From contig JAFDYQ010000022.1 in the NCBI GenBank assembly GCA_018267365.1, forward strand, positions 1-64,000: 64,000 bases of DNA, given 5' to 3'. This DNA comes from Bacteroidota bacterium. GTDB lineage: Bacteria; Bacteroidota; Bacteroidia; Chitinophagales; LD1. Positions 11,566 to 20,942 of the stretch are shown here, in pieces. The position numbers were made by a program, and so were the translations under genes. Every line of letters begins with the position of its first letter. The stretch's first letter is position 1. Under the pieces are notes generated by a model, which was not told the DNA's origin, searched no databases, and saw only the letters and a program-made list of their open reading frames with translations.

Positions 11566-11608
11566 AAAGGTGCAGGCAAAATACCCGCACCCCCTATGAT
11601 ACACTATA

Positions 11609-12154
11609 TCATTTCTCCAGGCACATCACATCAGAACGGAGTACGTACTTGACTCCCGACTCTACGCTGCGCCCCTCATGCATCAGCTCATGCATGAAGA
11701 CAAGCACCATACCCGTCTGCGGTGTGATGACCAGATCATCAAAGACCGTTTCGCCACCAGTATAGTCGTCATTCAGATAGAGCAAGAAGGTAAAATAGCT
11801 GGCCTCCTTGTCATTCCGCGCATAGAAGTTATCGCGATGCGGTTTGAAATACTCTCCCGTCTCATAGCGATAGAAGCGGAAGAGCTCATTCAGTCCGAAT
11901 GGTGTCACGTCTCCATAGCTGATAGGGAAGTGGTCTTTCAACCGCTCCCACAGCCGCTCAGCCAGCTCAAAGCTGGTGTGAAAGACGCGCGTGTTATTGC
12001 GATAGCGCGGCTCCAGGCGTACACCCATGGTGGTATTGATCGTGGCAGGTGCGTAGCCGGTGTCGGTACTCATCTGTATCAGTTCCCTGCACTCCTCAGG
12101 TGTGTAGAAGTCCTCTATAGTAAATATGTCTTTGCTATACTGATGCACTTTCAT
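11609..12154 (-). CDS. 2OG-Fe(II) oxygenase, prolyl 4-hydroxylase-like
   Basis: 181-aa single-domain protein of the 2-oxoglutarate and iron-dependent oxygenase fold. The metal triad and cosubstrate arginine are visible: H and D in FKPHRDNF (near residue 100), the distal H in the FMHELMHEG stretch, and R in KYVLRSDVM. Relatives hydroxylate prolines or other side chains in proteins; the substrate here is unknown. It is the last gene of the minus-strand set that contains the RNA ligase and the YkuK-like protein, 72 bp after the latter. Such oxygenases can act on ribosomal proteins or translation factors, so a translation link is possible but only inferred. Confidence 0.82.
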   Translation of the reverse strand: MKVHQYSKDIFTIEDFYTPEECRELIQMSTDTGYAPATINTTMGVRLEPRYRNNTRVFHTSFELAERLWERLKDHFPISYGDVTPFGLNELFRFYRYETGEYFKPHRDNFYARNDKEASYFTFLLYLNDDYTGGETVFDDLVITPQTGMVLVFMHELMHEGRSVESGVKYVLRSDVMCLEK

Positions 12155-12226
12155 GGTCTTTGCTTTAAAAGGAGAGGAGCAAAAAAGTTCTTCTCCTTAT
12201 TACTAAATATGTGGCGTACTCTTCCT

Positions 12227-12718
12227 CTAGTGCACTACCTTATTGGCGCAGCAGCTCGCTGCGACTGCATCCGGCTTGGCGCGAAAGGTGAACCCCATAG
12301 AGAGGATGTAGCCCATCGCCTCGCTCAGCGCAGTATTGGATCCAAAGCGTGGATTAGTATTGATATCCGCGTGTACCTCCAGCTCAGTACCATACTGGTC
12401 AAAGAGGTCGCACAGGTGATACGCGATCTCGATAGATTTCGCTACCTCATGCAGCATACGCTCCTTGATAGTCATGCGCTGCGCGGTGCGGTCAGAGCAA
12501 ATATACATATAGCCGCCCTTGCCCTTGCGCAGGATCAGGATCACGGTGGCAAACTCTACCTCAGATCCATAGACCTGAGAGTCGGTGCCGATGCAGATCT
12601 TGATCTTATTGCCGAGTGCCTGCTCGTGTATCAGCGCCTGCTCCATCGCTTCTTTGATCGGGCCTTTTATCCTGGTGCCATCCAGCTTTCGCCATTTCCC
12701 ATTTACTACTTGTTCCAT
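12227..12718 (-). CDS. YkuK-type RNase H-like protein (DUF458)
   Basis: 163-aa protein starting MEQVVNGKWRKLDG. The frame is open nine codons further, but alignment memory of the family favours this ATG. It has the family signature CIGTDSQVYG (near residue 42) and the VHADINTNPRFGSN block (near residue 120), whose acidic residues suggest an RNase H-fold metal site. The biochemical role is not established. It lies downstream of rtcB on the same strand, separated by an inverted-repeat-rich gap. Association with an RNA ligase and an Rsr/Y-RNA array makes an RNA-processing role plausible, by inference only. Confidence 0.8.
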   Translation of the reverse strand: MEQVVNGKWRKLDGTRIKGPIKEAMEQALIHEQALGNKIKICIGTDSQVYGSEVEFATVILILRKGKGGYMYICSDRTAQRMTIKERMLHEVAKSIEIAYHLCDLFDQYGTELEVHADINTNPRFGSNTALSEAMGYILSMGFTFRAKPDAVAASCCANKVVH

Positions 12719-12738
12719 TGGTTTTCGTATTTCGGCCC

Positions 12739-12837
12739 CACCCAACCCTCCCCAAAGGGGAGGGCTTAGTGAGTCATCGTTATTAAATTTTTTCCCGGCT
12801 GTTACAGCTCCCCATTGGGGAGGCCGGGAGGGGCTTC
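12739..12837. repeat. Pair of GC-rich palindromes between rtcB and the YkuK gene
   Basis: CCCTCCCC-AAA-GGGGAGGG lies at 12746-12764 and CTCCCC-ATT-GGGGAG at 12808-12822, flanked by CCCGG/CCGGG. A related CCTCTCC-AAA-GGAGAGG element lies at 15305-15321 in the tRNA array. They look like dispersed intergenic palindromes rather than terminators, because no T run follows. Confidence 0.55.
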
Positions 12838-14236
12838 ACCCATCCATCTTCACGATCTTTGGGTAGAAGATACCTTCTACATTCACGAGGTTCGTTTGCG
12901 CACCCATGACTGCATGGATATCCTTGTAGGCATGTGGTGCCTCGTCCAGTCCGCCGCCGAGCAGCTTCACACCGTTTGCCTTCAGCACTTCTTTGAGCGC
13001 TGCGTGGGTCACGCTGTTCATCGCCTTGGTACGGCTCATCTTACGCCCTGCACCATGCGAGGCAGAGTTTAGCGCTGCCGCCTCACCCTTGCCACTCACT
13101 ATGAAGCCCGGTGCGGTCATCGAGCCCGGTATGATACCCATCACACCTTTGGCTGCAGGTGTCGCACCCTTGCGGTGTACGATCATCTCGCGGCCATCCA
13201 CCATCTCCTTCCACGCAAAGTTGTGGTGGTTCTCCACCATGGCTATCGGTGCTACGTTCAGCACCTTGGCCAGCTTGCGGTGTATCTCGTGGTGGCAGGC
13301 GCTCGCATAGTCGCCGGCCAGGTTCATCGCGATCCAGTACTCCATACCTTCCTGTGTGTCGAGGTTCAGCCACGCCAGGTGGCCAGCTTCACGCGGCAGC
13401 CTTGTTTTTTCCTTGGCTACCTTAGTGTAGTGGCCCGCTATGGTCGCACCCAGGCCACGGGAGCCGGAGTGGGAGAGGAGCGCTACATACTGGCCCGGTG
13501 GCACCTTCAGTGCATTGTCAGGGTCTGATATCTCTACCACGCCCCACTCTACGAAGTGGTTTCCTGAGCCGGATGAGCCGAGCTGCTTTGCTGCTTTTAT
13601 ATGCAGGTTCTTTAGCAGCGCTATTTCGCCAAACTCCTTACGGTCCAGTATCTCATGATCCGGTGTCTCCTTAAACTCACGTCCCGCCCCAAAGAGTGTT
13701 CCCTCTATCAGCTCACGCTGGTAGAATCTTTCACGCTGCAGCAGATCACCAGCCGGTATGTCAAACACCGACAGGCACATACGACAGCCGATATCTACAC
13801 CCACACCGTACGGGATCACCGCATTCTCAGTAGCCAGGACACCGCCTATCGGGAGGCCATAGCCAGAGTGCGCATCGGGCATCAGCGCCGCAGCACGTGC
13901 TATCGGCAGCCTCGCCGCGATCTTCATCTGGTCAAAGGCGCCCTGCTCGATATGCTCCTGCCCGAAGGCACTGAAGTCTATACCTCTCTCCAGCAGCGGG
14001 ATCTCTTCGCCCCCTGCTTTAGGTTTCTCTATCAGCAGGTCTGCTATCTGATTGAGCGGAGCATCCTCCATAAACTCGGCAGGGTTTGCCAGTATCTTCT
14101 TCAAGATGTCCAGCGCTTCATCCAGTGTAGAGTGCTTGTAGTTTTTCTCCATCACACGCATCGCCACTGATATGACAGGTCCCTCAGGGTAGCCTATGTC
14201 TCTCAGGTCTTTTCCTCTTATGGATAATTTTGCCAT
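12836..14236 (-). CDS. rtcB: RNA-splicing ligase RtcB
   Basis: 466-aa GTP- and Mn-dependent ligase that joins 2',3'-cyclic phosphate or 3'-phosphate ends to 5'-OH ends, repairing cleaved tRNA or rRNA. Hallmarks are PDAHSGYGLPIGG, GVDIGCRM (metal-binding Asp and Cys), HSGSRGLG, the FVEWG region and the late AASHGAGR motif with the histidine that takes GMP. The start is the ATG at 14236 (MAKLSIRGK), preceded by a CTAAAAAGAC leader; an upstream in-frame ATG at 14263 is less likely. It is downstream of the tRNA/Y-RNA array and of rsr on the same strand, echoing the rsr-yrl-rtcB arrangement known in Salmonella. No RtcA cyclase or RtcR regulator is present in the window. Confidence 0.97.
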   Translation of the reverse strand: MAKLSIRGKDLRDIGYPEGPVISVAMRVMEKNYKHSTLDEALDILKKILANPAEFMEDAPLNQIADLLIEKPKAGGEEIPLLERGIDFSAFGQEHIEQGAFDQMKIAARLPIARAAALMPDAHSGYGLPIGGVLATENAVIPYGVGVDIGCRMCLSVFDIPAGDLLQRERFYQRELIEGTLFGAGREFKETPDHEILDRKEFGEIALLKNLHIKAAKQLGSSGSGNHFVEWGVVEISDPDNALKVPPGQYVALLSHSGSRGLGATIAGHYTKVAKEKTRLPREAGHLAWLNLDTQEGMEYWIAMNLAGDYASACHHEIHRKLAKVLNVAPIAMVENHHNFAWKEMVDGREMIVHRKGATPAAKGVMGIIPGSMTAPGFIVSGKGEAAALNSASHGAGRKMSRTKAMNSVTHAALKEVLKANGVKLLGGGLDEAPHAYKDIHAVMGAQTNLVNVEGIFYPKIVKMDG

Positions 14237-14291
14237 TGTCTTTTTAGTTGTTCTTGTTTTCAAATTTTTGTATCCCTTAGTCGTTTTGTCA

Positions 14292-14978
14292 TTATTGCTT
14301 AAACGCCTTCAGGATCGCGATATCTTCTGCTTCTCCATGTATAAATTTTTGAATAGCTAGCCTTAGCAGCATCCTTTCCTGTCCAGCTTGATATTGACAA
14401 TAACGGTATCGCGAGTATGCTATCCTTTCCAGCCTTCTGGTGATACAGTTGCTTTCCGAATATAGCTCTCCATCTATCACCTGCATATGTGTCACTATAT
14501 GTGGCCTTACCTTCATCACCAGCCAATATTCAGGAAGTATTATCCTGTATCTCTGACTATAGTGCGCATATTCACGGCGATTTTCCGGATGATACCACAC
14601 CTTGAGATGATCTTCCAACTGATCATATTGCTTCTGATCTATATGTATAGGATCAGGGCCATAGCTTACATATCGTCTTCTCCCATCCCAGTCAGTCGCA
14701 TAGTAACCTTTCTCACCCTTGCGGACGTTCTTGATATGCTGTACAGATCTCACTACACGGCACTCTTGAAAAGCGAGCTGAAGCAGGTCTTGTATTTTTT
14801 CTGCATCTCGTCTTCGTGATATGTCGTCTCTCAGTTTGTAGTAAACTTCCCACCCTCGTTGGAATGGTTCTTTTAGCTCTACATATGGCTGATCTCGTAT
14901 GGCATCCCATAGCTCTCTATCCCTTTTTCTAAGTCTCCTTATTTCTTTTTGTTCTAAGTCATGTTTATCCGGTTTCAT
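14292..14978 (-). CDS. Uncharacterised basic protein upstream of rtcB
   Basis: 228-aa soluble protein that is very rich in Arg, Lys, Tyr and Gln, with no signal peptide or membrane segment. The N-terminal 40 residues are a charged, probably helical stretch (DLEQKEIRRLRKRDRELW). The middle has a WDGRRRYVSYGPDPIHI segment. The C-terminus is rich in YRYCQYQ-type aromatic/basic residues. The composition suggests nucleic-acid binding, but I recognise no family. It sits exactly between the tRNA-like array and rtcB, 55 bp upstream of rtcB and on the same strand, so it is a good candidate partner of the RNA repair system. Coding status is supported by its length and position; function is unknown. Confidence 0.75.
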   Translation of the reverse strand: MKPDKHDLEQKEIRRLRKRDRELWDAIRDQPYVELKEPFQRGWEVYYKLRDDISRRRDAEKIQDLLQLAFQECRVVRSVQHIKNVRKGEKGYYATDWDGRRRYVSYGPDPIHIDQKQYDQLEDHLKVWYHPENRREYAHYSQRYRIILPEYWLVMKVRPHIVTHMQVIDGELYSESNCITRRLERIAYSRYRYCQYQAGQERMLLRLAIQKFIHGEAEDIAILKAFKQ

Positions 14979-15066
14979 TGTAAACTGTTGATCTGATAAA
15001 TACCAAAGGCACAGGCCTTCGGCTATTGTGTCTCATTTTGATTGTTGTTACCAGATACCGTTTCAT
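14965..15066 (-). CDS. Possible 33-aa leader ORF
   Basis: Short ORF (MKRYLVTTIKMRHNS...) directly after a TAACTAAAAGC leader of the type seen before rsr, rtcB and the small genes of this island. It overlaps the start of the 228-aa gene by 14 bases. No homology is recognised. It could be a translation-coupling leader or chance. Confidence 0.25.
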   Translation of the reverse strand: MKRYLVTTIKMRHNSRRPVPLVFIRSTVYNETG

Positions 15067-15101
15067 TGTTTTTGCTTTTAGTTATTTAAATACTTGTTCT
15101 G

Positions 15102-15185
15102 TGAGAGTGGCAAGATTCGAACTTGCTATGCCCGAAGGCAGCGGTTTTACAGACCGCCCTGGCACTCCAGCTCCGGCGCACTCCC
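15102..15185 (-). tRNA. tRNA-Tyr (GTA), D-arm atypical
   Basis: Acceptor GGGAGTG pairs with CACTCTC, the anticodon loop CTGTAAA gives GTA, a long variable arm is present (type II, as expected for bacterial Tyr), and the T-loop is TTCGAAT. The D-region lacks the usual TAGCTCAG-like box; the best local stem is CTGG/CCAG with a four-base loop. This suggests decay or an altered role. It is the last RNA gene of the array before the rtcB section. Confidence 0.75.
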
Positions 15186-15199
15186 ATTTATTTACTATC

Positions 15200-15271
15200 G
15201 GGTGAAGAAGGGAATCGAACCCTCTGCTGCGGTCTCACAAACCGCCGTGTTGCCTATACACCAGCTTCACC
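15200..15271 (-). tRNA. tRNA-His (GTG)-like
   Basis: Acceptor GGTGAAG/CTTCACC is perfect, the anticodon stem GCGGT/ACCGC encloses TTGTGAG (GTG), the discriminator is C, and the T-loop is TTCGATT. The D-arm is short (GTG/CAC with an ATAGGCAA-like loop). Confidence 0.75.
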
Positions 15272-15302
15272 ATTTCACCTCTCCCATCTGCCTTTGGCAT
15301 CT

Positions 15303-15323
15303 TCCCTCTCCAAAGGAGAGGAA
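15303..15323. repeat. Palindrome CCTCTCC-AAA-GGAGAGG
   Basis: Perfect seven-base arms with an AAA loop in the spacer between tRNA-His and tRNA-Arg. It resembles the element at 12746-12764. Confidence 0.5.
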
Positions 15324-15361
15324 AGAACTATGGAGCAGAGGCGTTGCTTTTACTTTCTTCG

Positions 15362-15432
15362 TACACCGGACAGGATTCGAACCTGTATGACCCGCTTAGA
15401 AGGCGGGGATGTTTCCATTACATCACCAGTGC
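15362..15432 (-). tRNA. tRNA-Arg (TCT)
   Basis: Acceptor GCACTGG/CCGGTGT (with G-T pairs), anticodon stem CCCGC/GCGGG around CTTCTAA (TCT), D-arm GATG/CATC, T-loop TTCGAAT. CCA is not encoded. Confidence 0.8.
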
Positions 15433-15435
15433 ATA

Positions 15436-15508
15436 CACACGCCCCAGGCTTCGAACCCGGACCACAGGTTTTGGAGACCTGTATGCTAGCCTGTTACACC
15501 AGGCGTAT
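15436..15508 (-). tRNA. tRNA-Trp (CCA)
   Basis: Acceptor ATACGCC/GGCGTGT, discriminator G as usual for Trp, anticodon stem CAGGT/ACCTG around CTCCAAA (CCA), T-loop TTCGAAG. Only three bases separate it from tRNA-Arg. Confidence 0.8.
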
Positions 15509-15511
15509 ATG

Positions 15512-15584
15512 CGGACAGAGCAGGACTCGAACCTGCAACGCGAGGTCCTTCAAACCCCCGCTCTACCATTGGAGCTACCTGTCC
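15512..15584 (-). tRNA. tRNA-Phe (GAA)
   Basis: Acceptor GGACAGG/TCTGTCC, canonical D-arm (TAGCTCC...TAGAGC), anticodon loop TTGAAGG (GAA), T-loop TTCGAGT. Three bases separate it from tRNA-Trp. Confidence 0.85.
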
Positions 15585-15587
15585 ATG

Positions 15588-15659
15588 AGCCTCCTTCAGT
15601 GTTTGAACCTGATTCCCCAGATTACAAGTCTGGTGCATCACCACAGATGCTTAAGAGGC
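15588..15659 (-). tRNA. tRNA-Thr (TGT)-like, non-canonical D and T arms
   Basis: Acceptor GCCTCTT/AGGAGGC and anticodon stem CCAGA/TCTGG around CTTGTAA (TGT) are intact. The D-arm is a five-pair stem GCATC/GATGC with only six loop bases and no GG. The T-loop reads TTCAAAC with a G-A mismatch at the end of the T-stem. It may be a decayed or specialised tRNA. Confidence 0.65.
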
Positions 15660-15675
15660 GCTCACGTTTTCTCTG

Positions 15676-15747
15676 CGGGAACAGGATGGATCGAACATCC
15701 GGCGCGCGGCTTAACAGGCCGCTACTCTGCCACTGAGTTATGTTCCC
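15676..15747 (-). tRNA. tRNA-Asn (GTT)
   Basis: Perfect acceptor GGGAACA/TGTTCCC, D-arm TAACTCAGTGGCAGAGTA, anticodon stem GCGGC/GCCGC around CTGTTAA (GTT), T-loop TTCGATC, discriminator G. Confidence 0.9.
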
Positions 15748-15843
15748 TTTGTCACAGCTGTCTGTTGTTGGTTGGCAGTTGGCTGGAAACAGCTATGATA
15801 CCCGCCACCTGCCAACAGCCAACTAACACAAACAACACATTCG
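15748..15843. other. Foldable spacer in the tRNA array
   Basis: The spacer has a GTTGGCAGTTGGCTG word and a later GCCAACAGCCAAC word that are partly complementary, plus TGGAAACAGC. A spacer at 16094-16175 carries related words in the opposite sense (GGCTGTTTCCA). No gene was seen. Confidence 0.4.
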
Positions 15844-15916
15844 CTGATGCAGCAGGCTTCGAACCTGCAACCCCCGCTTTCGTAGAGCGGCGTTCTTCCC
15901 GTTGAACTATGCATCA
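15844..15916 (-). tRNA. tRNA-Arg (ACG)
   Basis: Perfect acceptor TGATGCA/TGCATCA, D-arm TAGTTCAACGGGAAGAAC, anticodon stem CCGCT/AGCGG around CTACGAA (ACG, normally modified to ICG by TadA), T-loop TTCGAAG. Confidence 0.88.
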
Positions 15917-15922
15917 ATATCA

Positions 15923-15999
15923 GTTGACCCGGTGGGGCTCGAACCCACGACCCCCGCTTTAAAAGAGCGGTGCTGCCTCCATGCTGAGCTACAGATCAA
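15923..15999 (-). tRNA. tRNA-Lys (TTT)
   Basis: Acceptor TTGATCT/GGGTCAA (G-T pairs), anticodon stem CCGCT/AGCGG around CTTTTAA (TTT), T-loop TTCGAGC. The D-region is enlarged (GCT/AGC stem with a 12-base loop). It is 6 bases from tRNA-Arg(ACG). Confidence 0.8.
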
Positions 16000-16003
16000 T
16001 ATG

Positions 16004-16093
16004 TAGACCCGGAGATTCGAACCTGCCTGCGGCATGCAGGCACTCACTATTCAGGTTCTAAACCTGCTGCCTCTCCCGTTGGGCTACGAGTCC
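16004..16093 (-). tRNA. tRNA-Leu (TAG), palindrome inserted in variable/T arm
   Basis: Type II tRNA with acceptor GGACTCG/CGGGTCT, D-region TAGCCCAACGGGAGAGGC and anticodon loop TTTAGAA (TAG). The variable region contains a palindrome TGCCTGC/GCAGGCA that replaces the 5' strand of the T-stem, so CTCCG has no proper partner. The gene is therefore likely damaged by a small repeat insertion. Confidence 0.65.
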
Positions 16094-16175
16094 ATTTTTT
16101 AGGTGACGGTTGTCAGGTGGCTGTTGGCAGGCTGTTTCCAGTCACCAGTCACCGTACACCAGCCACCCTTATTAG
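16094..16175. other. Foldable spacer in the tRNA array
   Basis: Repeated GGTGAC/GTCACC and GGTGGCTG/CAGCCACC words can form a long hairpin. No coding sequence was seen. Confidence 0.4.
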
Positions 16176-16248
16176 TTGCCGGAGCAGGATTCGAACCTGC
16201 ACATACCAGAGTCAAAATCTGGTGCCCTACCAGTTAGGCGATCCGGCA
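16176..16248 (-). tRNA. tRNA-Gln (TTG)
   Basis: Perfect acceptor TGCCGGA/TCCGGCA, D-arm TCGCCTAACTGGTAGGGC, anticodon stem CCAGA/TCTGG around TTTTGAC (TTG), T-loop TTCGAAT. Confidence 0.9.
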
Positions 16249-16338
16249 GTATGGTCTATGCCTATGCTGCGCTGTCGCCACTGAGGAACTTTGGTTTTGT
16301 TTGTCTTCATTGTCGTTTTCTTTTTTGTTTTCAAAATG

Positions 16339-16417
16339 ACATCGGGCTATAGATGCAGAGTGTGTGATGTTGGTTTCATTTTTCAGATGAAGTAACACTC
16401 AGCGACGGCACCGATGT
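16339..16417 (-). ncRNA. Y-RNA-like element 7 (short, no tRNA module)
   Basis: The outer helix ACATCGG(T)/CCGATGT has a bulged C in the 3' strand (AG-C-CCGATGT). The 5' internal loop is CCGTC and the 3' loop ATCTAT. The inner helix GCTGAGTGT/ACACTCTGC has one T-T mismatch. The apex begins with the conserved TTACTTC and then only a small TTCA/TGAA hairpin. It is the last of the seven elements and lacks T-arm and acceptor. Some bacterial species encode Y RNAs without a tRNA-like domain besides one that has it, which this would match. Confidence 0.65.
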
Positions 16418-16425
16418 TTATCTTT

Positions 16426-16441
16426 TGTATAGAAACTAAAG
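16426..16441 (+). repeat. Left copy of a perfect 16-bp inverted repeat
   Basis: TGTATAGAAACTAAAG on the plus strand. The same 16 bases occur on the minus strand at 17918-17933. The two copies bracket Y-RNA-like elements 1 to 6. Confidence 0.7.
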
Positions 16442-16446
16442 CATGT

Positions 16447-16584
16447 AAAAAAGTACCGGACAAAGTGCGATCAGCGTAAGCTGCTCTAACCATCTGAGCT
16501 ACCCTGGTATAGTACCAGGGGCGGGACTCGAACCCGCGACCTGCCGAGTATGAGTCGGAGTAACACTGATCTACGGCACCGATA
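16447..16584 (-). ncRNA. Y-RNA-like element 6 with permuted tRNA module (CAT loop)
   Basis: The outer helix is TATCGGTG/TG-T-CCGGTA with a single bulged U, followed by a six-T tail. The 5' internal loop is CCGTA and the 3' loop GCACTT. The inner helix is GATCAGTGT/ACGCTGATC. The apex holds a hairpin CCGA-CTCATAC-TCGG (16544-16558), a perfect T-arm GCGGG/CCCGC with TTCGAGT (16521-16537), then an acceptor stem CCCTGGT/ACCAGGG closed by a five-base loop (16502-16520), then a D-arm GCTC/GAGC. The tRNA is therefore circularly permuted: its ends meet inside the loop and the Y stem enters between the D and anticodon arms. This is what a Y RNA with a tRNA-like module should look like, next to rsr. 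Confidence 0.82.
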
Positions 16585-16585
16585 T

Positions 16586-16660
16586 GTACGAAAGGCAGGG
16601 CTCGAACCTGCGACCTCATGCTCCCAAAGCATGGATTCTACCATCTGAAATACTTTCGTA
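16586..16660 (-). tRNA. tRNA-Pro (TGG)
   Basis: Perfect acceptor TACGAAA/TTTCGTA, D-arm with ATTTCAGATGGTAGAAT, anticodon stem CATGC/GCATG around TTTGGGA (TGG), T-loop TTCGAGC. It ends one base before Y-RNA-like element 6, so cleavage of the tRNA 3' end could create the Y-RNA 5' end. Confidence 0.87.
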
Positions 16661-16680
16661 TGTGGCTGTGACAGCCCGAG

Positions 16681-16755
16681 TGGACACGCCGGGATTTGAA
16701 CCCAGATCTTCCTCTTTGCAAAAGAGGTGCATTAGCCAGATTATGCTAGCGGCCC
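16681..16755 (-). tRNA. tRNA-Ala (TGC)-like with broken acceptor stem
   Basis: Anticodon stem CCTCT/AGAGG around TTTGCAA (TGC), D-arm GCAT/ATGC and T-loop TTCAAAT are good. Of the acceptor, only the first four pairs form (GGGC with GTCC, including a G-T at the 3:70 position that marks alanine tRNAs); pairs 5 to 7 are mismatched. It is either decayed or a 3:70-bearing mimic. Confidence 0.65.
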
Positions 16756-16764
16756 ATTAAAAAA

Positions 16765-16899
16765 ACGCAGGGCGAAAAGTGATAAGGTACTATTATGTAA
16801 ATTGCTCTTCCAGCTGAGCTATCCCGACCACTGCCGGGAGTGGGATTTGAACCCACGACCCATTTATCCCGAAGAAACCCTTACCTACGGCACCTGCAT
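16765..16899 (-). ncRNA. Y-RNA-like element 5 with permuted tRNA module
   Basis: The outer helix ATGCAGGTG/CG-C-CCTGCGT has a bulged C and ends next to seven T. The 5' internal loop is CCGTA and the 3' loop ACTTTT. The inner helix is GGTAAGG/CCTTATC. The apex has the conserved TTTCTTCGG, a perfect T-arm GTGGG/CCCAC with TTCAAAT (16840-16856), an acceptor stem TCCCGGC/GTCGGGA closed by a four-base loop (16822-16839), then a D-arm GCTC/GAGC. The anticodon arm is reduced. The next gene downstream, tRNA-Ala, starts 9 bases away. Confidence 0.8.
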
Positions 16900-16902
16900 A
16901 TC

Positions 16903-16937
16903 TTAGAAAGGACCAGCAGCATCAGATCTGCTGGTCC
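16903..16937 (-). terminator. Hairpin after the 107-aa gene
   Basis: GGACCAGCAG/CTGCTGGTCC is a perfect ten-pair stem followed by CTTTCT on the minus strand. It lies between the 107-aa gene and Y-RNA-like element 5. The T run is weak, so it may be a processing or attenuating structure. Confidence 0.6.
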
Positions 16938-16946
16938 GGTTTTGCA

Positions 16947-17270
16947 TCAGGTCTTGGTGTTCATCTTTGCAAAGAGGGCATCGTCCAGCTGCTCTATGTA
17001 GGAGAGCGGACTGACACCGGGCTCCAGGTGATGGATATCATGATAGCCATTCTCTGCGGTGATGATGGAGTCCTCGGGGCGGATGGCGCCAGTGTATTTG
17101 TGGCCATAGCTACCTGTCACGGTGCGTGTGGCCGGGTCTACATCTCCCCACTGTGTCTGTGCGTCTCTCTGACGCGGTTCGATAGGCTCTACGCAGTATA
17201 CGCGGCCTGTGCGGGCTGAGTGGACGTAAAACCTGCCCGTCTCAGCGCTGCTGTTGTAGCTGTGTCTCAT
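16947..17270 (-). CDS. Unknown 107-aa protein embedded in the tRNA/Y-RNA array
   Basis: Small soluble protein (MRHSYNSSAETGRFYVHSARTG...) with a beta-rich start, an acidic C-terminus (LEPGVSPLSYIEQLDDALF) and conserved-looking GRFYV, GRVYCVEP and GHKYTGAI words. The frame is open upstream into tRNA-Glu, so the ATG at 17270 is taken: it is the first one after the tRNA, 32 bases from its 3' end. I recognise no family. It lies on the same strand as the RNA elements, with tRNA-Glu before it and a hairpin plus Y-RNA-like element 5 after it, so it must be co-transcribed or very locally controlled. A role in binding or processing these RNAs is inference. Confidence 0.65.
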   Translation of the reverse strand: MRHSYNSSAETGRFYVHSARTGRVYCVEPIEPRQRDAQTQWGDVDPATRTVTGSYGHKYTGAIRPEDSIITAENGYHDIHHLEPGVSPLSYIEQLDDALFAKMNTKT

Positions 17271-17302
17271 AGCATTTGTTTTTTGAGTGAATAATAAAAT
17301 AG

Positions 17303-17375
17303 CATCACGTGAGAGGATCGAACTCTCATTCCCGACGTGAAAAGCCGGTGCCCTGGCCATTTAGACGAACGTGAC
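17303..17375 (-). tRNA. tRNA-Glu (TTC)
   Basis: Acceptor GTCACGT/ACGTGAT (first pair G-T), D-arm GTCT/GGGC, anticodon stem CCGGC/GTCGG around TTTTCAC (TTC), T-loop TTCGATC. Its 5' end is three bases after the outer helix of Y-RNA-like element 4, so RNase P cleavage here would generate the 3' end of that RNA. Confidence 0.87.
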
Positions 17376-17378
17376 ATG

Positions 17379-17496
17379 ATACAGGGCAATGGACGAAAAG
17401 AGATTATATCCCCCATGTTTTTTGCTTTGATAATGGTGGAGGATATTGGAGTCGAACCAATTGAACCGAAGTAACACTCTTCTACGGCACCTGTAT
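17379..17496 (-). ncRNA. Y-RNA-like element 4 (T-arm plus acceptor only)
   Basis: The outer helix ATACAGGTG/TG-C-CCTGTAT has a bulged C. The 5' internal loop is CCGTA and the 3' loop GTCCAT. The inner helix is GAAGAG/CTCTTT. The apex has the conserved GTTACTTCGG, a perfect T-arm ATTGG/CCAAT with TTCGACT (17445-17461), and an acceptor stem ATCCTCC/GGGGGAT closed by a 23-base loop (17408-17444). No D-arm or anticodon arm can be found. It is a tRNA minihelix on a Y stem. Confidence 0.78.
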
Positions 17497-17513
17497 ATTT
17501 TTGAATGAAAAGA

Positions 17514-17652
17514 CAGTAAGGGTGAATGGCGATCAGAGACGAAAACTGAACTAACCTCTCCTCTCGGAAAGTGCCGGACTTGAACCGACGACCTTTGCAT
17601 CACTAATGCAACGTTCTAACCCGAAGTAACCCTGATCTACGACACCTCACCG
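17514..17652 (-). ncRNA. Y-RNA-like element 3 with permuted tRNA module (AGT loop)
   Basis: The outer helix CGGTGAGGTG/CA-C-CCTTACTG has a bulged C. The 5' internal loop is TCGTA and the 3' loop GCCATT. The inner helix is GATCAGGG/TCTCTGATC. The apex has GTTACTTCGG, then an anticodon-like hairpin TTGCA-TTAGTGA-TGCAA (17595-17611), a T-arm GTCGG/CCGGC with TTCAAGT (17573-17589), and an acceptor stem ACTTTCC/GGAGAGG (one G-A mismatch) closed by a four-base loop (17555-17572). GTTC after the acceptor can pair with GAAC before the anticodon hairpin, so here the Y stem enters through the D-loop. Confidence 0.78.
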
Positions 17653-17662
17653 TGTGTTTTGA

Positions 17663-17760
17663 AAAGGAGTGACAGTGAACAGGAGCTCTATTTACAATAG
17701 TTGTAAATGCGAATTCGAACCGCGATAGCCACGAAGTACCTCCTGTCTACGACATCCTTT
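17663..17760 (-). ncRNA. Y-RNA-like element 2 (minihelix)
   Basis: The outer helix AAAGGATG/CA-C-TCCTTT is perfect apart from the bulged C. The 5' internal loop is TCGTA and the 3' loop CACTGT. The inner helix is GACAGGAG/CTCCTGTT. The apex has GGTACTTCG, a T-arm with TTCGAAT (17709-17723) and an eight-pair acceptor-like stem ATTTACAA/TTGTAAAT with a CTA triloop (17690-17708). It is the most compact element with a T-arm, 98 nt. Confidence 0.8.
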
Positions 17761-17766
17761 GACCAA

Positions 17767-17908
17767 AGTAAGGAGCAAAAGCGGGATGAGCACCGGGGCA
17801 CGCGCTGGCCGGGAGTCGAACCCGGAGTGCCTCATGCTATATCTCAAGCATCACGCAATTCCTCCCCATCTGTCGAGCGAAGTATCTCATCTCTACGGCA
17901 TCCTTACC
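17767..17908 (-). ncRNA. Y-RNA-like element 1 (tRNA-Leu-derived apex)
   Basis: The outer helix GTAAGGATG/TG-C-TCCTTAC has a bulged C. The 5' internal loop is CCGTA. The inner helix is GATGAG/CTCATC. The apex has GATACTTCG, a GGAGGAATTG stretch like the D-region of bacterial tRNA-Leu, a hairpin ATGCT/AGCAT with a GAG-containing loop, and a perfect T-arm CCGGG/CCCGG with TTCGACT (17809-17825). A matching closed acceptor is not obvious, so this one is degenerate. It is the first RNA element after rsr and sits six bases before element 2. Confidence 0.7.
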
Positions 17909-17917
17909 ATAGGTTGT

Positions 17918-17933
17918 CTTTAGTTTCTATACA
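17918..17933 (-). repeat. Right copy of a perfect 16-bp inverted repeat
   Basis: TGTATAGAAACTAAAG on the minus strand, just upstream of Y-RNA-like element 1. Its partner is at 16426-16441 on the plus strand. Confidence 0.7.
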
Positions 17934-17965
17934 TCATGTCAAAGAACTTTTTTCTTTCCTTTCGG

Positions 17966-17996
17966 AAAAGCCCTCCCGCCGCTAAAGCGGGAGGGC
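17966..17996 (-). terminator. Hairpin after rsr
   Basis: GCCCTCCCGC/GCGGGAGGGC is a ten-pair stem followed by TTTT on the minus strand, seven bases beyond the rsr stop. It may separate rsr mRNA from the RNA array or protect the mRNA end. Confidence 0.7.
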
Positions 17997-18002
17997 GCGT
18001 TT

Positions 18003-19526
18003 TCATAGGTCTATTTTCTCGATCTCGGTTACTGCGTTGCTACCGTTTTCAATAGCAGCGAGTACGTCAAAGACCTTGTCGCTCAAGCCTGCGATCAGAT
18101 ATACATCTTTGCGGCGGATATCGAGCGGTGTAGTGCCATAGCCTGCCAGGTCAAACATGTAGAGCCTTGCCTCTGGGGCTATACGCTTGTACTCGTCCCA
18201 TACGGTAGATACGCTACGCTGCATGTGTGCACCGCGACCGCTATCCCACATCTGGCAGTCGGTAAACATCATGACCTTATCCACCTTCACTCTGCGGGAG
18301 ATCAGGTCTTCGATCACTTTGTAGCCATTCGTAGCGTAACCTACTTCGCCTTCGCGCTTGTAGTATTCATCTACGTTTGCCAGTACGGATACCTGTGGCA
18401 TGTTGATCACCTTCCAGCTATCGCCAAACATTCCGGTGACCACATTCTTGCTCCTGTTTTGCAGCAGCATAGCCAGCATCAGGCCGATGTCATAGTTCAT
18501 GACTTTGCTCTTTGCAGAGATGGCCTTTTGCATAGACCCGGACACATCGCAGGCGATCACGACTTTTGTGGAGTCATCAAAGCCCTTGATATTAGCCGCA
18601 GTGTGCAGTACGGCGCTTTCCAGCGTGGTCATCACTCGTGCAGTGCGGCCATCTTTGAGCTGCTTCAGCTCACGCCATGCCGCCAGGTAGCGGAATGGCA
18701 GTTGCTTCGCGTTGGCCACGGCACGGGCATCTGCCAGGTGGCTGCAGACTTTTGCCAGCGCCTCATCGGAGACGTTTGCCTCCAGGATGTTGCGCAGGTT
18801 TCGCAGCATGGCCATGTAGCCCATCTTGCCACTCAGGATCAGCTCCTCCCACTTTTCTTTTTTCGCACCAGCTTTCGCATCGGCGTTTTCGTAGGCCTCC
18901 TGACCCAGCGCACTCAGCTCAGTCTCCCAGGTGTAGGCAGTAGCGAGCTCATCCTTTGCGATCTTGTTGAAGATCGCTTGCTGCGCTTCGTCTTTTGCCT
19001 TTGGGTGCACGAGGAAGAGTGCGTCTTTCAGCTTCACCTCAGCATCACGGTTGTACTTGCTGAACTGGTACTCGTCAAACTTGTTGAAAGCCTCTGCGAG
19101 ACCTTTCTGTACTTGCTTGCTGAGCTTGTTCAGCTTCTTTACGCCCTTGCGTTCGTTTGCCAGTTGGTAGTAGGCCAGCAGTTCAGTGATCTCGTCTGCA
19201 CGCTGTACCACGCGGGCTACTGTCTTGCCGGTAGCGGCGCTGCCCTTCAGCTTTGCCATCTCTACGGCCAGTACCAGTGGCACGGAGCGCAGGTACATTT
19301 TCTCACGGGCATATACTGCCAGCCGGCCCGCAAAGTCTGCATCAACTGCAGTCATCAGCTCGCGGATCCTGGCCACGCGGTCGTCTCCTTTCTCATAGAA
19401 TTTATCTCCGAGTGAGGTAGTGACCACAGCGGCGTATAGTGCAGTGCGTGCTTCCATAGCGTATGCCTCTGCACGTTCATAGTTTTTGGTCTTGTTTCGG
19501 TTAAAGACCTTTAGGTTGAATTTCAT
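18003..19526 (-). CDS. rsr: Ro60 ortholog Rsr (TROVE and vWA domains)
   Basis: 507-aa ring-shaped RNA-binding protein of the Ro60 family, which holds Y RNAs and misfolded RNA and in Deinococcus links to PNPase. The N-terminal two thirds is the HEAT-repeat TROVE domain (for example YAREKMYLRSVPLVLAVEMA and MGYMAMLRNLRNILE). From about residue 310 a von Willebrand A domain follows, with a complete MIDAS start DVSGSM and the MMFTDCQMWD strand. The start has an AAGGAG Shine-Dalgarno inside an AAAAACTAAAAGGAG leader, and the TAA of the preceding small gene lies in that leader. Directly downstream are seven Y-RNA-like elements, its expected partners, and further on rtcB. Identification is firm. Confidence 0.96.
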   Translation of the reverse strand: MKFNLKVFNRNKTKNYERAEAYAMEARTALYAAVVTTSLGDKFYEKGDDRVARIRELMTAVDADFAGRLAVYAREKMYLRSVPLVLAVEMAKLKGSAATGKTVARVVQRADEITELLAYYQLANERKGVKKLNKLSKQVQKGLAEAFNKFDEYQFSKYNRDAEVKLKDALFLVHPKAKDEAQQAIFNKIAKDELATAYTWETELSALGQEAYENADAKAGAKKEKWEELILSGKMGYMAMLRNLRNILEANVSDEALAKVCSHLADARAVANAKQLPFRYLAAWRELKQLKDGRTARVMTTLESAVLHTAANIKGFDDSTKVVIACDVSGSMQKAISAKSKVMNYDIGLMLAMLLQNRSKNVVTGMFGDSWKVINMPQVSVLANVDEYYKREGEVGYATNGYKVIEDLISRRVKVDKVMMFTDCQMWDSGRGAHMQRSVSTVWDEYKRIAPEARLYMFDLAGYGTTPLDIRRKDVYLIAGLSDKVFDVLAAIENGSNAVTEIEKIDL

Positions 19527-19539
19527 TGTTTATCTCCTT

Positions 19540-19755
19540 TTAGTTTTTGCCTCTACATCCTGCCTCGCGCGGAGGTGGGAGATAGGCAGGCGTCATTCTT
19601 TTATTTTCACCACCGGGATCAGCCTGTGGCATGGCAGTAGCCATCGTGTCTGTCTCATCAGAGTCAGACGCTGCATGCTGAGCGAGTGCATGTATCACTC
19701 GTATCAGTAGCCACACTGCTGGTACCCAGGGCAAAACAGCAGTGCGTGTGTGCAT
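19540..19755 (-). CDS. Small membrane protein, paralog of the 87-aa protein
   Basis: 71-aa protein beginning MHTRTAVLPWVPAVWLLIRVIHALA, which is one likely transmembrane segment, followed by an acidic/polar tail and MTPAYLPPPREAG. The same layout (N-terminal helix, then MIPDYMPEPRE) occurs in the 87-aa protein encoded at 19972-20235, so the two are probably diverged paralogs. The start at 19755 is preceded by CACTAAAACAACG, in which TAA is the stop of the previous ORF, suggesting translational coupling. It lies 13 bases upstream of rsr. No family is recognised. Confidence 0.6.
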   Translation of the reverse strand: MHTRTAVLPWVPAVWLLIRVIHALAQHAASDSDETDTMATAMPQADPGGENKRMTPAYLPPPREAGCRGKN

Positions 19756-19762
19756 CGTTGTT

Positions 19763-19945
19763 TTAGTGTATGGGTAAGCGGCCGAAGCCAAAGTCGCGGA
19801 GCATCTGCTCCTTACTGCGCCTCACAGACTTCACATCGCTGAAGTCCAGCGCTCCTGCGATAAATCTCCCTATGGCATCCAGCCACCGGGTAGAGAACCT
19901 GACGTGCAGATCAAACTGCCGTGCCTTGTGTTGAATTGTTATCAT
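19763..19945 (-). CDS. Small basic protein upstream of rsr
   Basis: 60-aa protein (MITIQHKARQFDLHVRFSTRW...) that is Arg/Phe-rich with an amphipathic central part and ends FGFGRLPIH. It has a GAAAAACTAAAAACC leader before its ATG, as seen for its neighbours, and its stop codon lies in the leader of the next small gene. It shows no homology that I recognise. Position and the shared leader support a real gene in the rsr transcript. Confidence 0.5.
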   Translation of the reverse strand: MITIQHKARQFDLHVRFSTRWLDAIGRFIAGALDFSDVKSVRRSKEQMLRDFGFGRLPIH

Positions 19946-19971
19946 AGTATTGGTTTTTAGTTTTTCTGTTT

Positions 19972-20235
19972 TTATTCTTCCTTTTCTGTTTTTGTCACGA
20001 TCACCATCTCTATACCTAGCCTCATCAGGAGCAGTGGAAAAGGCTCCCTTGGTTCTGGCATGTAGTCGGGGATCATTTCCCTTTCTTCTTCTGTCAAAGG
20101 TCTTGCCTCTGGTATGATAGCAGGGCCCTGAGCGTCTATAAGTATTTCCCTGGTTGCTTCATACCTGGCTATCGCTTTTATCACTGTGATGACCAGCGGC
20201 AGGAAGCATATGAATGCTGCAAAATTTGTCTCCAT
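19972..20235 (-). CDS. Small membrane protein of the rsr operon
   Basis: 87-aa protein with an N-terminal transmembrane helix (FAAFICFLPLVITVIKAIA), an acidic middle (PLTEEEREMIPDYMPEPRE) and a second hydrophobic segment (FPLLLMRLGIEMVIV) before a charged end. The MxPxYxPxPRE motif is shared with the 71-aa protein nearer to rsr. It lies 26 bases after a terminator-like hairpin, so expression may depend on read-through or a separate start. Function is unknown; a membrane tether or holin-like role can only be guessed. Confidence 0.6.
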   Translation of the reverse strand: METNFAAFICFLPLVITVIKAIARYEATREILIDAQGPAIIPEARPLTEEEREMIPDYMPEPREPFPLLLMRLGIEMVIVTKTEKEE

Positions 20236-20255
20236 CGTTTTCGTTTTTCAGTCAA

Positions 20256-20294
20256 ATAAAAAAGCCCCGTGTGCTATTTGCAGACGGGGCTTTT
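20256..20294. terminator. Bidirectional hairpin between small genes
   Basis: AAAGCCCCGT/ACGGGGCTTTT with T runs on both strands. On the minus strand it follows the 52-aa ORF and precedes the 87-aa gene. Confidence 0.75.
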
Positions 20295-20313
20295 CTCTTC
20301 TGAAGGTATATCG

Positions 20314-20472
20314 CTATACCCACTGATGCTTTCGCCTCGTCTGTCTGTGATCAAATAGATCTTCATTGCGCTTGCCACCCGTATTTATCACCAGGGCATA
20401 GCTATAGCTGCCTGCGCACTGCGCCGGTGACCACTGCTGGTGCCTGAGTGATATGTTGTTTCTGAGTGCCAT
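20314..20472 (-). CDS. Putative 52-aa basic protein
   Basis: Short ORF (MALRNNISLRHQQWS...RRKHQWV) with a good Shine-Dalgarno AAGGAG nine bases before the ATG and a terminator hairpin 20 bases after the stop. It is rich in Arg, His and Gln. No homology is recognised. The ribosome site and terminator make it likely to be translated. Confidence 0.5.
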   Translation of the reverse strand: MALRNNISLRHQQWSPAQCAGSYSYALVINTGGKRNEDLFDHRQTRRKHQWV

Positions 20473-20542
20473 TGTGCTTTCTCCTTAAACCTCCCATGCC
20501 TTGCCACCATTAGGTTTGGGGCATGAGCATGGTCGGTTTTTA

Positions 20543-20600
20543 TTTTTAGTTTCCTGTTATTGTTTTAAAAAAAATAAACCCGGCTTTTTGGGCCGGGCTT
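20543..20600 (-). terminator. Terminator in the rsr leader region
   Basis: CCCGGC/GCCGGG hairpin followed by TTTATTTTTTTT on the minus strand, 33 bases after the stop of a 31-codon ORF. It sits between the promoter at 20757-20789 and the rest of the small genes, so it could act as an attenuator. Confidence 0.65.
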
Positions 20601-20632
20601 ACTGTTTGTTATTAGTTGCTTTAGTTTTTGTA

Positions 20633-20728
20633 CTAAGACCAATATCTGCAATAAGCCCGAAACACACTATCCATGCGGTTTTCGCCGCCGAAGAGCACTA
20701 GTGCCTGATATGTGTGTTTGCGTGTCAT
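20633..20728 (-). CDS. Possible 31-aa leader peptide
   Basis: Minus-strand ORF MTRKHTYQALVLFGG...CRYWS, 29 bases downstream of a consensus promoter and followed by a terminator. It has no clear Shine-Dalgarno. The position is that of an attenuation leader peptide, but this is not proven. Confidence 0.3.
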   Translation of the reverse strand: MTRKHTYQALVLFGGENRMDSVFRAYCRYWS

Positions 20729-20756
20729 TTGAAAATGATTTTTCGTTTTGTTGCCA

Positions 20757-20789
20757 CAAAGATACATACGTTTAATTCTAAAAACCAAA
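20757..20789 (-). promoter_or_regulatory. Bacteroidota-type promoter for the rsr island
   Basis: On the minus strand TTTG (20786-20789) is followed after 21 bases by TATCTTTG (20757-20764), matching the TTTG / TAnnTTTG consensus. It points into the small genes and rsr. Confidence 0.65.
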
Positions 20790-20833
20790 TATTTTATGCA
20801 AAATAATTTTTATCGTTTCCTGAAACATAGTGA

Positions 20834-20873
20834 TAGTGAGGGTTTCACTATAAAATTTAGAATGAATCTAAAT
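20834..20873. repeat. Two tandem palindromes upstream of the rsr-island promoter
   Basis: TAGTGA-GGGTT-TCACTA (20834-20850) and ATTTAGA-ATGAA-TCTAAAT (20855-20873). They lie 45-85 bases upstream of the -33 box, in the position of activator sites, but could be incidental. Confidence 0.4.
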
Positions 20874-20889
20874 TCAGTTCCTGTAAAAG

Positions 20890-20923
20890 GAAAGGCGCAG
20901 AAGTGAACACTCCTGCGCTTTTA
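20890..20923. terminator. Terminator after the giant metalloprotease
   Basis: Imperfect hairpin between AAAGGCGCAGAAGTG and CACTCCTGCGCTTTT with A/T tracts on both sides, directly beyond the stop of the gene at 20943. Confidence 0.7.
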
Positions 20924-20942
20924 AGTTGCGATCTATAAGATA

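Follow-up and report, generated by a model that had tools for sequence, protein, structure and literature searches.

What would a bacterial Ro60 protein and its Y RNAs do next to an RNA ligase and an array of tRNA genes? The locus that raises this question lies in a 64,000-nucleotide stretch of a Bacteroidota genome (the window). A preliminary description of the window listed rsr, Y RNAs, linear tRNAs, rtcB, a YkuK-type gene and a 2OG-Fe oxygenase gene as neighbors on one strand. All of these parts are present on the minus strand, with seven Y motifs and 14 linear tRNAs, as follows.

20757..20789, minus strand: candidate promoter-like site of the Bacteroidota kind, TTTG-N21-TATCTTTG, ahead of rsr and the small ORFs
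19972..20235, minus strand: ORF of 87 aa upstream of rsr, kept in the closest relative (L036, 7257-7520)
19540..19945, minus strand: pair of short ORFs (60 and 83 aa) that overlap and may or may not be coding
18003..19526, minus strand: rsr, Ro60/TROVE protein, 507 aa, Pfam TROVE and vWA_Ro60
17970..17996, minus strand: terminator-like hairpin with TTTT after it, in the rsr-Y1 interval, read from the sequence
17766..17910, minus strand: Y1, Y stem around an unusually shaped tRNA module resembling Ser(tga), ends approximate
17664..17764, minus strand: Y2, Y RNA limited to a T arm and a capped acceptor, ends approximate
17512..17655, minus strand: Y3, Y RNA around a D-loop-opened tRNA with whole anticodon arm (agt), ends approximate
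17378..17497, minus strand: Y4, Y RNA lacking a D arm, with T arm and a long-capped acceptor in which CCA is encoded, ends approximate
17302..17375, minus strand: linear tRNA-Glu(ttc), ARAGORN and Rfam tRNA
16947..17270, minus strand: ORF108, 107 aa, inside the tRNA array, small-protein family without Pfam match
16764..16901, minus strand: Y5, YrlA-like, tRNA module with its opening in the anticodon arm, YrlA 36.3 bits (cut-off 69)
16680..16754, minus strand: linear tRNA-Ala(tgc), ARAGORN and Rfam tRNA
16586..16659, minus strand: linear tRNA-Pro(tgg), ARAGORN and Rfam tRNA
16453..16586, minus strand: Y6, YrlA-like, permuted tRNA with CAT hairpin, YrlA 46.0 bits (cut-off 69)
16270..16412, minus strand: Y7, Y stem found by the Y motif, no recognizable tRNA module
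15101..16248, minus strand: 11 linear tRNAs (Gln, Leu, Lys, Arg(acg), Asn, Thr, Phe, Trp, Arg(tct), His, Tyr)
14292..14978, minus strand: ORF228, 228 aa, without Pfam match
12836..14236, minus strand: rtcB, predicted RNA ligase, PF01139
12227..12718, minus strand: YkuK-type RNase H-like protein, PF04308, E 2.6e-34
11609..12154, minus strand: 2OG-Fe(II) oxygenase, PF13640, E 1.7e-13

Rsr belongs to the Ro60 family based on its TROVE domain (Pfam, 95.7 bits, E 4.7e-27) and a vWA_Ro60 match at residues 321-490, the 26.5 bits of which are 1.2 below the cut-off of 27.7. RtcB contains the domain that defines its family (PF01139, 266.8 bits, E 5.5e-79). Neither RtcA nor RtcR was matched anywhere in the genome, which is 97% complete, and the control search was positive in E. 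coli; judged by these two genes, the island is not an rtcBA operon of the Salmonella kind. The pattern TTTG-N21 plus downstream box, based on what we take to be the Bacteroidota promoter consensus, has its sole match on the minus strand of 11000-21500 at the candidate site, and no sigma-54-like pattern was found on the same strand of that interval. The 87-aa and 60-aa ORFs are without Pfam match. Comparing the predicted structures of ORF108 (pLDDT 80) and ORF228 (pLDDT 70, five sequences) with the PDB gave no hit up to an E value of 0.001. A large search retrieved one other relative of ORF228, and weak ones (23-28%) were found in three loci; its position in close relatives is occupied by different uncharacterized proteins. 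PADLOC matched none of the eight proteins given to it.

ARAGORN identified 15 tRNAs within 15101-17881, and we count 14 as linear because the fifteenth (Ser) sits inside Y1. At the gathering score of the Rfam tRNA model 13 stretches of the array match, one of them inside Y3. Relative to the closest relative, aligned columns are 90% identical in the array tRNAs, 86% in the Y RNAs and 60% in the spacers, where 46% of the columns are gaps. Over three relatives 579 base pairs are unchanged and 107 are changed, 53 on both sides and still pairing, 30 on one side and still pairing, and 24 broken. The loops around the anticodons are well formed, and a comparison of 102 anticodon positions among relatives shows a single difference. 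With structure kept, spacers drifting and compensatory changes present, the array tRNAs are, judging from these alignments, under purifying selection. The tRNA bodies look foreign: their best matches among the host tRNAs compared are 61-76% identical. Out of 14 comparable anticodon loops in the window, nine differ from those of the host (the loops of Lys, Asn, Trp, Tyr and Pro match). The anticodons duplicate the genome's own, except Ala(tgc), which is absent from the assembly; therefore, the array is not there to read new codons. Two of the tRNAs are unusual in form: tRNA-Ala has a poor acceptor stem, and tRNA-Leu carries a palindromic insert in the T arm. A repeat family was rejected as the source of this insert, since the exact pattern occurs as one copy in the genome.

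Marks read by synthetases are largely kept across the array loci. In 155 of 192 array tRNAs the discriminator base matches the host isotype, against 87 expected (shuffled labels, 20000 shuffles: mean 87, sd 5, highest 107); for isotypes with a base other than A it does so in 49/53. The 37 mismatches among the 192 include Glu (8/13), Arg (7/21), Gln (5/13) and Phe (5/18); in the window itself, Glu, Phe and Arg(acg) are among those without the host base. G-1 is encoded in 11/12 array tRNA-His, and an A following the D-loop GG (A20) is found in 15/17 readable tRNA-Arg vs 23/168 others. By these measures, the second tRNA set is structurally sound and equipped with isotype identity marks, as a spare tRNA operon of the trn kind would be.

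The anticodon loops of two isotypes were followed across genomes. The host-type tRNA-Arg loop CTACGGA occurs in 88 and CTACGAA in 3 of 119 Bacteroidia genomes, and 13 of 14 array tRNA-Arg(acg) have the loop NTACGAA. This position-37 pattern indicates that the array loops are foreign and gives no grounds for inferring nuclease resistance: the tRNA-Arg of E. coli also has A37, yet is cut by colicin D. The array-type tRNA-Phe loop is found in 4/247 genomes, namely in the window's own array and three others; two of these three loci are without tRNA and one has a lone tRNA-Phe, so that no new cluster was found.

The Y motif used in the survey was written from the window's own copies and searched near rsr in 81 Bacteroidota loci, where it occurs 211 times in sense and 10 times in antisense orientation. 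Of 155 Y elements, 144 are downstream of rsr, and 65/81 loci have at least one. The helix is represented by 138 distinct sequences among the 155 elements and covaries as a stem (GGTG-C in 73/75 and GATG-T in 33/33 readable cases). Located next to rsr and with a putative Rsr-binding stem with a conserved internal loop, whose motif we take to be GNCGAAG/CNUUNAC, the elements fit the description of bacterial Y RNAs. A circularly permuted tRNA is enclosed in 63/155 elements and in 0/775 shuffled ones; the other 92 modules are not readable as a whole tRNA. Together, the covarying stems and permuted modules indicate that the Y RNAs are real.

In most permuted modules the opening lies in the anticodon arm, the arrangement known from YrlA; in 7/63 it lies in the D loop, which appears to be an added Y RNA architecture. 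The D-loop-opened modules display an intact anticodon arm on an acceptor-capped RNA. In the window, Y3 folds as drawn (z -2.27) and the minimum-energy fold of Y5 departs partly from the drawn one. Y5 and Y6 resemble YrlA but score below the RF02553 cut-off. Y2 and Y4 are not readable as tRNA in the permuted reading, the lower helix of Y7 was not found, and Y1 matches a Deinococcus Y RNA weakly (22.5 bits, E 0.71).

Linear tRNA clusters are near rsr in 22 of the 81 loci and absent from 59; cultured bacteria that carry an array include Emticicia agri, Paraflavitalea sp. CAU 1676 and Xanthocytophaga flavus. RtcB is near rsr in 14/22 array loci vs 13/59 others, ORF108 and the YkuK-type protein each in 7/22 vs 0/59, and, because the surveyed loci share descent, p values for such counts overstate the association. 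The oxygenase (2/22 vs 0/59) is an uncertain member of the cassette. Some array loci elsewhere also encode RNA ligases, RlaP, Thg1, macro or Band_7 proteins. These co-occurrences bear out the earlier notion of an expanded RNA-repair island, and the preliminary interpretation is thereby supported in part; its further step, in which Rsr and Y RNAs would pass damaged tRNAs on to RtcB, is hypothetical. The preliminary description would have been contradicted by loci with rsr and rtcB lacking an array, together with silence of the array RNAs; the 13 loci of this kind supply half of that combination. Since 59 rsr loci are without a cluster and 13 of these have rtcB, we conclude that the array is an optional module. 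Among 29 rtcB genes found independently of rsr, six have at least two co-directional tRNAs just upstream, and all six clusters include tRNA-Phe.

We tentatively explain the island, with a little less than even confidence, as a survival cassette for tRNA damage that combines spare tRNAs with RtcB and a sorter made up of Rsr and Y RNAs. Synthetases of the cell would charge the second tRNA set, which would sustain translation once host tRNAs are cut, RtcB would reseal the cut tRNAs, and Rsr with the permuted-tRNA Y RNAs would sort damaged ones. What can be read from the DNA itself is the gene content, the compensatory changes, the identity marks, the covarying Y stems, the permutation of many of the modules, and the association of tRNA clusters with rtcB, both close to rsr and, in at least one locus, in its absence. 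We infer that the array is expressed under stress control, charged, used on the ribosome and able to withstand particular nucleases; what Rsr (judged solely from position and family), the Y RNAs, ORF108, ORF228 and the YkuK-type protein would do is predicted. The locus may thereby point to cut tRNAs as a likely client of bacterial Ro60, Y RNAs and RtcB, which here would travel with a nearly non-redundant, isotype-true tRNA set. A more elaborate version, which we hold to be doubtful if conceivable, has Bacteroidota chromosomes maintain the chargeable set wired to RtcB alongside a family of circularly permuted tRNAs bound by Ro60, the D-loop-opened kind acting as bait or sensor, through which Rsr would detect anticodon nucleases and call on spares and repair.

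Spare and decoy tRNAs had both been suggested before. As decoys, the array tRNAs would stay uncharged and serve as bait that occupies anticodon nucleases, with RtcB resealing them afterwards; the well-formed loops and nearly invariant anticodons would suit this, and competitive nuclease inhibition is among the possibilities named for YrlA by Hughes et al. in the part of their text available to us (PMC7790460). In a bait, the kept discriminator bases, the tRNA-His G-1 and the tRNA-Arg A20 would be superfluous, and we consider the reading unlikely. Because the identity marks are kept, the tRNAs are conserved with compensatory changes and the anticodons are repeated, chargeable spares are favored over mere decoys for the linear tRNAs; the permuted modules may be decoys. 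It is rather doubtful that the island is two side-by-side modules with no shared step, one formed by rtcB and the tRNA array, the other by rsr and the Y RNAs and devoted to the decay of structured RNA. One tRNA cluster does lie directly before rtcB in a 19.5 kb stretch without Rsr match, most rsr loci have no cluster, and, although Y RNAs and linear tRNAs alternate in the window and its genus, the linear tRNAs of L043, L044 and L053 are on the other side of rsr. Against this, the interleaving of Y RNAs and linear tRNAs on one strand is kept in four genomes of the genus, and RtcB is commoner in array loci.

The foreign-looking bodies would also be expected of a remnant or anti-defense set of a phage or other mobile element, and such arrays are known on phages and plasmids from the accessible portions of PMC10264068 and PMC12803027. 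This origin is improbable, given the purifying selection and an array that sits between the same neighbors in the window and two relatives. For phages in particular we rejected it: the best 20 of 248 phage records are short matches covering 6-8% of the query. Phage relatives of Rsr are all <60% identical (95 records). Two further readings are very improbable. Additional copies would raise the dosage of tRNAs for codons that the host reads poorly, yet the array anticodons duplicate the host's and the same isotypes recur beside rtcB in unrelated genomes. Alternatively, permuted modules could be precursors from which the Y stem is excised and whose ends RtcB joins into working tRNAs. Permuted tRNA genes do occur in archaea and algae, and CCA is encoded before the acceptor cap in Y4 and in the L057 element at 6021, but more than half of the modules are not readable as whole tRNAs, the Y stem covaries as a stem and several acceptor caps have just 3-6 bases.

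If the spare-tRNA cassette is correct, the idea that extra tRNAs counter cleavage would no longer be confined to phages and plasmids but would come to include a cassette on the chromosome, found across Bacteroidota. Phage tRNA clusters are thought, in the available text of PMC10264068, to evade anticodon nucleases; they share with the island extra tRNAs with altered anticodon loops, whereas the array here is chromosomal and accompanied by Rsr and Y RNAs. Jumbo phages have the same kinds of parts (tRNAs, RtcB and a TROVE protein), but in phage genomes, and the accessible text of PMC7824862 describes no between-gene array. The tRNA array unit of Mycobacterium avium is also an extra clustered set with no assigned role, but is found on giant linear plasmids, and the terms RtcB, RNA ligase and Rsr do not appear in the available text (PMC12803027). 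YrlA is a Y RNA that mimics tRNA via circular permutation (PDB 6CU1; Rfam RF02553; PMC11472068, in part); Y5 and Y6 match its module below cut-off with permutation in the anticodon arm, while the D-loop-opened modules keep that arm. The Salmonella RNA repair operon, rsr-yrlBA-rtcBA in the portion of PMC7790460 available, has in common with the island rsr, Y RNAs, rtcB and a tRNA-like domain in a Y RNA; the window genome is without RtcA or RtcR match but has seven Y RNAs and the linear array. A precedent for a spare-tRNA cassette is the Anabaena trn operon, described in the accessible text of PMC10272220 as a silent second tRNA set, alongside the housekeeping one, that is turned on by translational stress. 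Its 26 tRNAs are on a megaplasmid, and their induction by stress has been shown. According to the same text, Anabaena rtcB is a separate target of the trn regulator outside the operon.

To judge by its relatives, the window comes from a Bacteroidota genome. The island (11609-20789) runs along the minus strand, from a single feature:

20789, minus strand: promoter-like site

From this site the order is small ORFs, rsr (encoding the Ro60-type TROVE protein Rsr), a hairpin, the Y RNAs Y1-Y4, tRNA-Glu, ORF108 (a 107-aa protein), Y5, tRNA-Ala, tRNA-Pro, Y6, Y7, eleven tRNAs, ORF228 (a 228-aa protein), rtcB (encoding an RNA ligase), a YkuK-type gene and a 2OG-Fe oxygenase. The content initially claimed for it, with rsr, Y RNAs, tRNAs, rtcB and small proteins on one strand, is right and exceeds chance. 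ARAGORN reads 15 tRNAs in the array region, including a Ser call that falls within Y1. Elsewhere, the stretches fetched from the host genome hold 37 distinct tRNAs and the window itself a tRNA-Lys(ctt), and the array is therefore an extra tRNA set. The ORF between array and rtcB, whose product in the window has no Pfam match, is not the same in two close relatives.

A strong terminator-like hairpin (17970-17996) separates rsr from the array. Before Y1 (about 17915-17935) lies a 16-17 base motif, TTGTATAGAAACTAAAG, with an inverted copy before Y7 (16422-16441). The pair is present also in the related rsr locus L040, and variants occur in L041 and L042; in L041 both copies are altered and their mutual match is kept. 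The pair is possibly an operator, an RNA pairing or a recombination site.

Rsr was found in 5 of 30 genomes of one family, the window's included. A profile scan of genome contigs with a five-Rsr alignment, biased toward Bacteroidota Rsr, gave 165 relatives, of which the best 80 plus the window make up 81 loci; L040, L041, L042 and L057 are genomes G021, G025, G026 and G004 under their record names, and each was counted once. The arrangement given in the preliminary description recurs in part: linear tRNA clusters (at least 3 tRNAs, at most 6 kb from rsr, same strand) are present in 22 of the 81 loci, with 192 tRNAs in total, and are absent from 59, 13 of which have RtcB. RtcB accompanies 14 of the 22 clusters (p 0.001 against 13 of 59), and YkuK and ORF108 are each found in 7 of 22 versus 0 of 59 (p 5e-5 each), p values that overstate the linkage, as the loci include close relatives and a number of the contigs do not reach far. 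ORF228 (3 of 22 versus 1 of 59) and the oxygenase (2 of 22 versus 0 of 59) are rarer. On the opposite strand, 37 of the 81 loci carry a group of similar regulator-type proteins (32 of 59 loci without a cluster versus 5 of 22 with one); a protein resembling this group, at 8587-9606 of L044, has a WYL domain (Pfam).

The array tRNAs are divergent, with best identities of 0.61-0.76 between those of the window and the 37 canonical tRNAs compared. When every locus is judged by one host table, taken from the window's genome, the discriminator base matches the host isotype for 155 of 192 array tRNAs (shuffled labels: mean 87, sd 5). Matches include His C (12/12), Asp G (9/9), Thr T (6/6) and Asn G (13/14), and the 37 mismatches include Glu (8/13), Arg (7/21), Gln (5/13) and Phe (5/18). 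G-1 is encoded in 11 of 12 array tRNA-His, and an A follows GG in the D loop of 15 of 17 readable tRNA-Arg versus 23 of 168 other array tRNAs. All three features are synthetase identity marks. Identity to the closest relative is 90% for tRNAs, 86% for Y RNAs and 60% for spacers, and across three relatives pairing survives a change of both bases in 53 base pairs and of one base in 30, and is lost in 24, although a few of these comparisons match wrongly assigned genes (e.g., Ala of L040, Arg(tct) of L041). Among 15 anticodon loops in the window, 9 are unlike the host's, 5 are identical and 1 lacks a host counterpart. In single array tRNAs the T arm holds a palindromic insert, roughly 16-20 bases long (window 16023-16042; Lys, L046 9692 and L049 9279; Pro, L057 6166); the window's exact pattern is single-copy in its genome.

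These tRNAs had been proposed as spares or decoys. Since charging marks would be superfluous in a bait, their retention favours, at the level of sequence, reading the array as spare tRNAs; the decoy role is less favoured. The commonest isotypes are Phe (18 loci), Lys(ttt) and Arg(acg) (14 each), Asn, Gln, Glu and Pro(tgg) (13 each), His (12), and Asp and Met (9 each), the rarest Val(tac) (3), Gly (1) and Cys (1), and 16 of 22 clusters lack a repeated anticodon. Isotypes for which the assembled genome has one anticodon only average 9.1 loci per anticodon (11 anticodons) versus 3.0 for others (23 anticodons; p 0.0025), with Ile absent from the assembly and Ala counted by ggc. Thus, the reserve favours tRNAs without an understudy.

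The association with rtcB was also seen independently of rsr. An array-type loop, CTACGAA, with T arm was found in 3 of 119 Bacteroidia genomes: two lone tRNA-Arg genes, and a Pro, Gln, His, Leu, Arg, Phe cluster directly upstream of rtcB in genome G112, where 19.5 kb held no Rsr match. An array-type tRNA-Phe loop pattern gave no additional cluster in 247 genomes. RtcB matched in 42 of 197 genomes, and 30 loci were fetched, the window among them. At least 2 tRNAs lie within 1.5 kb of rtcB in 6 of the 29 others (one being the G112 cluster, one with a partial rsr in its flank and four viewed within 1.5 kb), all upstream and co-directional and all six with tRNA-Phe; the other 23 lack tRNAs within that distance. 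Thus, tRNA clusters partner rtcB, not rsr alone.

Other array loci hold further repair genes. In L058 (Xanthocytophaga flavus), 13418-17710 between tRNA cluster and rtcB encodes two RNA ligases, a macro-domain protein and a Thg1-type protein, a richer repair island. Neighbours elsewhere include RlaP (L043), Band_7 (L045, L053), endonuclease V (L045) and an AAA protein (L053). A CDI immunity-type protein (CdiI_3) lies soon after rtcB in L096 (16299-16715).

A Y motif derived from the window's own copies occurs 211 times in sense and 10 in antisense over the 81 loci. A closing helix is present in 155 sense motifs from 65 loci (138 distinct helix sequences); 56 were discarded. In the lower helix, the base at position two and its partner vary together (GGTG-C in 73 of 75 and GATG-T in 33 of 33 readable elements; 47 unreadable). 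This helix has at least 7 pairs in 79 of 155 elements versus 22 with partners exchanged between elements, and at least 6 in 114 versus 57. ARAGORN reads a linear tRNA in 0 of 155 modules; when modules are doubled head to tail it reads one across the joint in 63 (92 unread) versus 0 of 775 shuffled. The 63 joints fall in the anticodon loop (22), a stem (29; to judge by position usually the anticodon stem, though not for the Y1 elements of L040 and the window), the variable region (5) or the D loop (7: window 17646 (Y3), L040 12007, L043 7611 and 7999, L073 6105, L084 2009, L108 4153); modules opened in the D loop keep the anticodon arm intact. The predicted fold of Y3 has lower and upper helices, anticodon and T hairpins and a capped acceptor (z -2.27), and that of Y6 its four hairpins (z -2.10). 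Y4 and Y5 have stable predicted folds that only partly match the drawn structure, and Rfam YrlA matches Y5 and Y6 under the cut-off. A conserved TACTTCG 3' of the upper helix, whose conservation comes partly from selection as it belonged to the search motif, could pair partially with a conserved internal-loop CGTAGA.

A literature search by titles and abstract openings found nothing on tRNA clusters adjoining rsr or rtcB in Bacteroidota, and an earlier mention is possible. The nearest prior work is said to be Chen 2014, Wang 2018, Burroughs and Aravind 2016, Sim 2020 and Santamaria-Gomez 2021; Burroughs and Aravind reportedly mention a tRNA-like partner RNA. The island is best read as a spare-tRNA and repair cassette, in which the part played by Rsr and the Y RNAs is least certain. 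The Salmonella operon is described as uniting rsr, Y RNAs and rtcBA under regulation by damaged tRNAs, and its authors consider YrlA possible as a competitive inhibitor (PMC7790460). That operon includes RtcA, whereas the window's genome (97% complete) gave no match to RtcA or RtcR. Jumbo phages are reported to combine tRNAs, RtcB and TROVE proteins (PMC7824862), and the Anabaena trn operon is described as a second, stress-induced tRNA set (PMC10272220).
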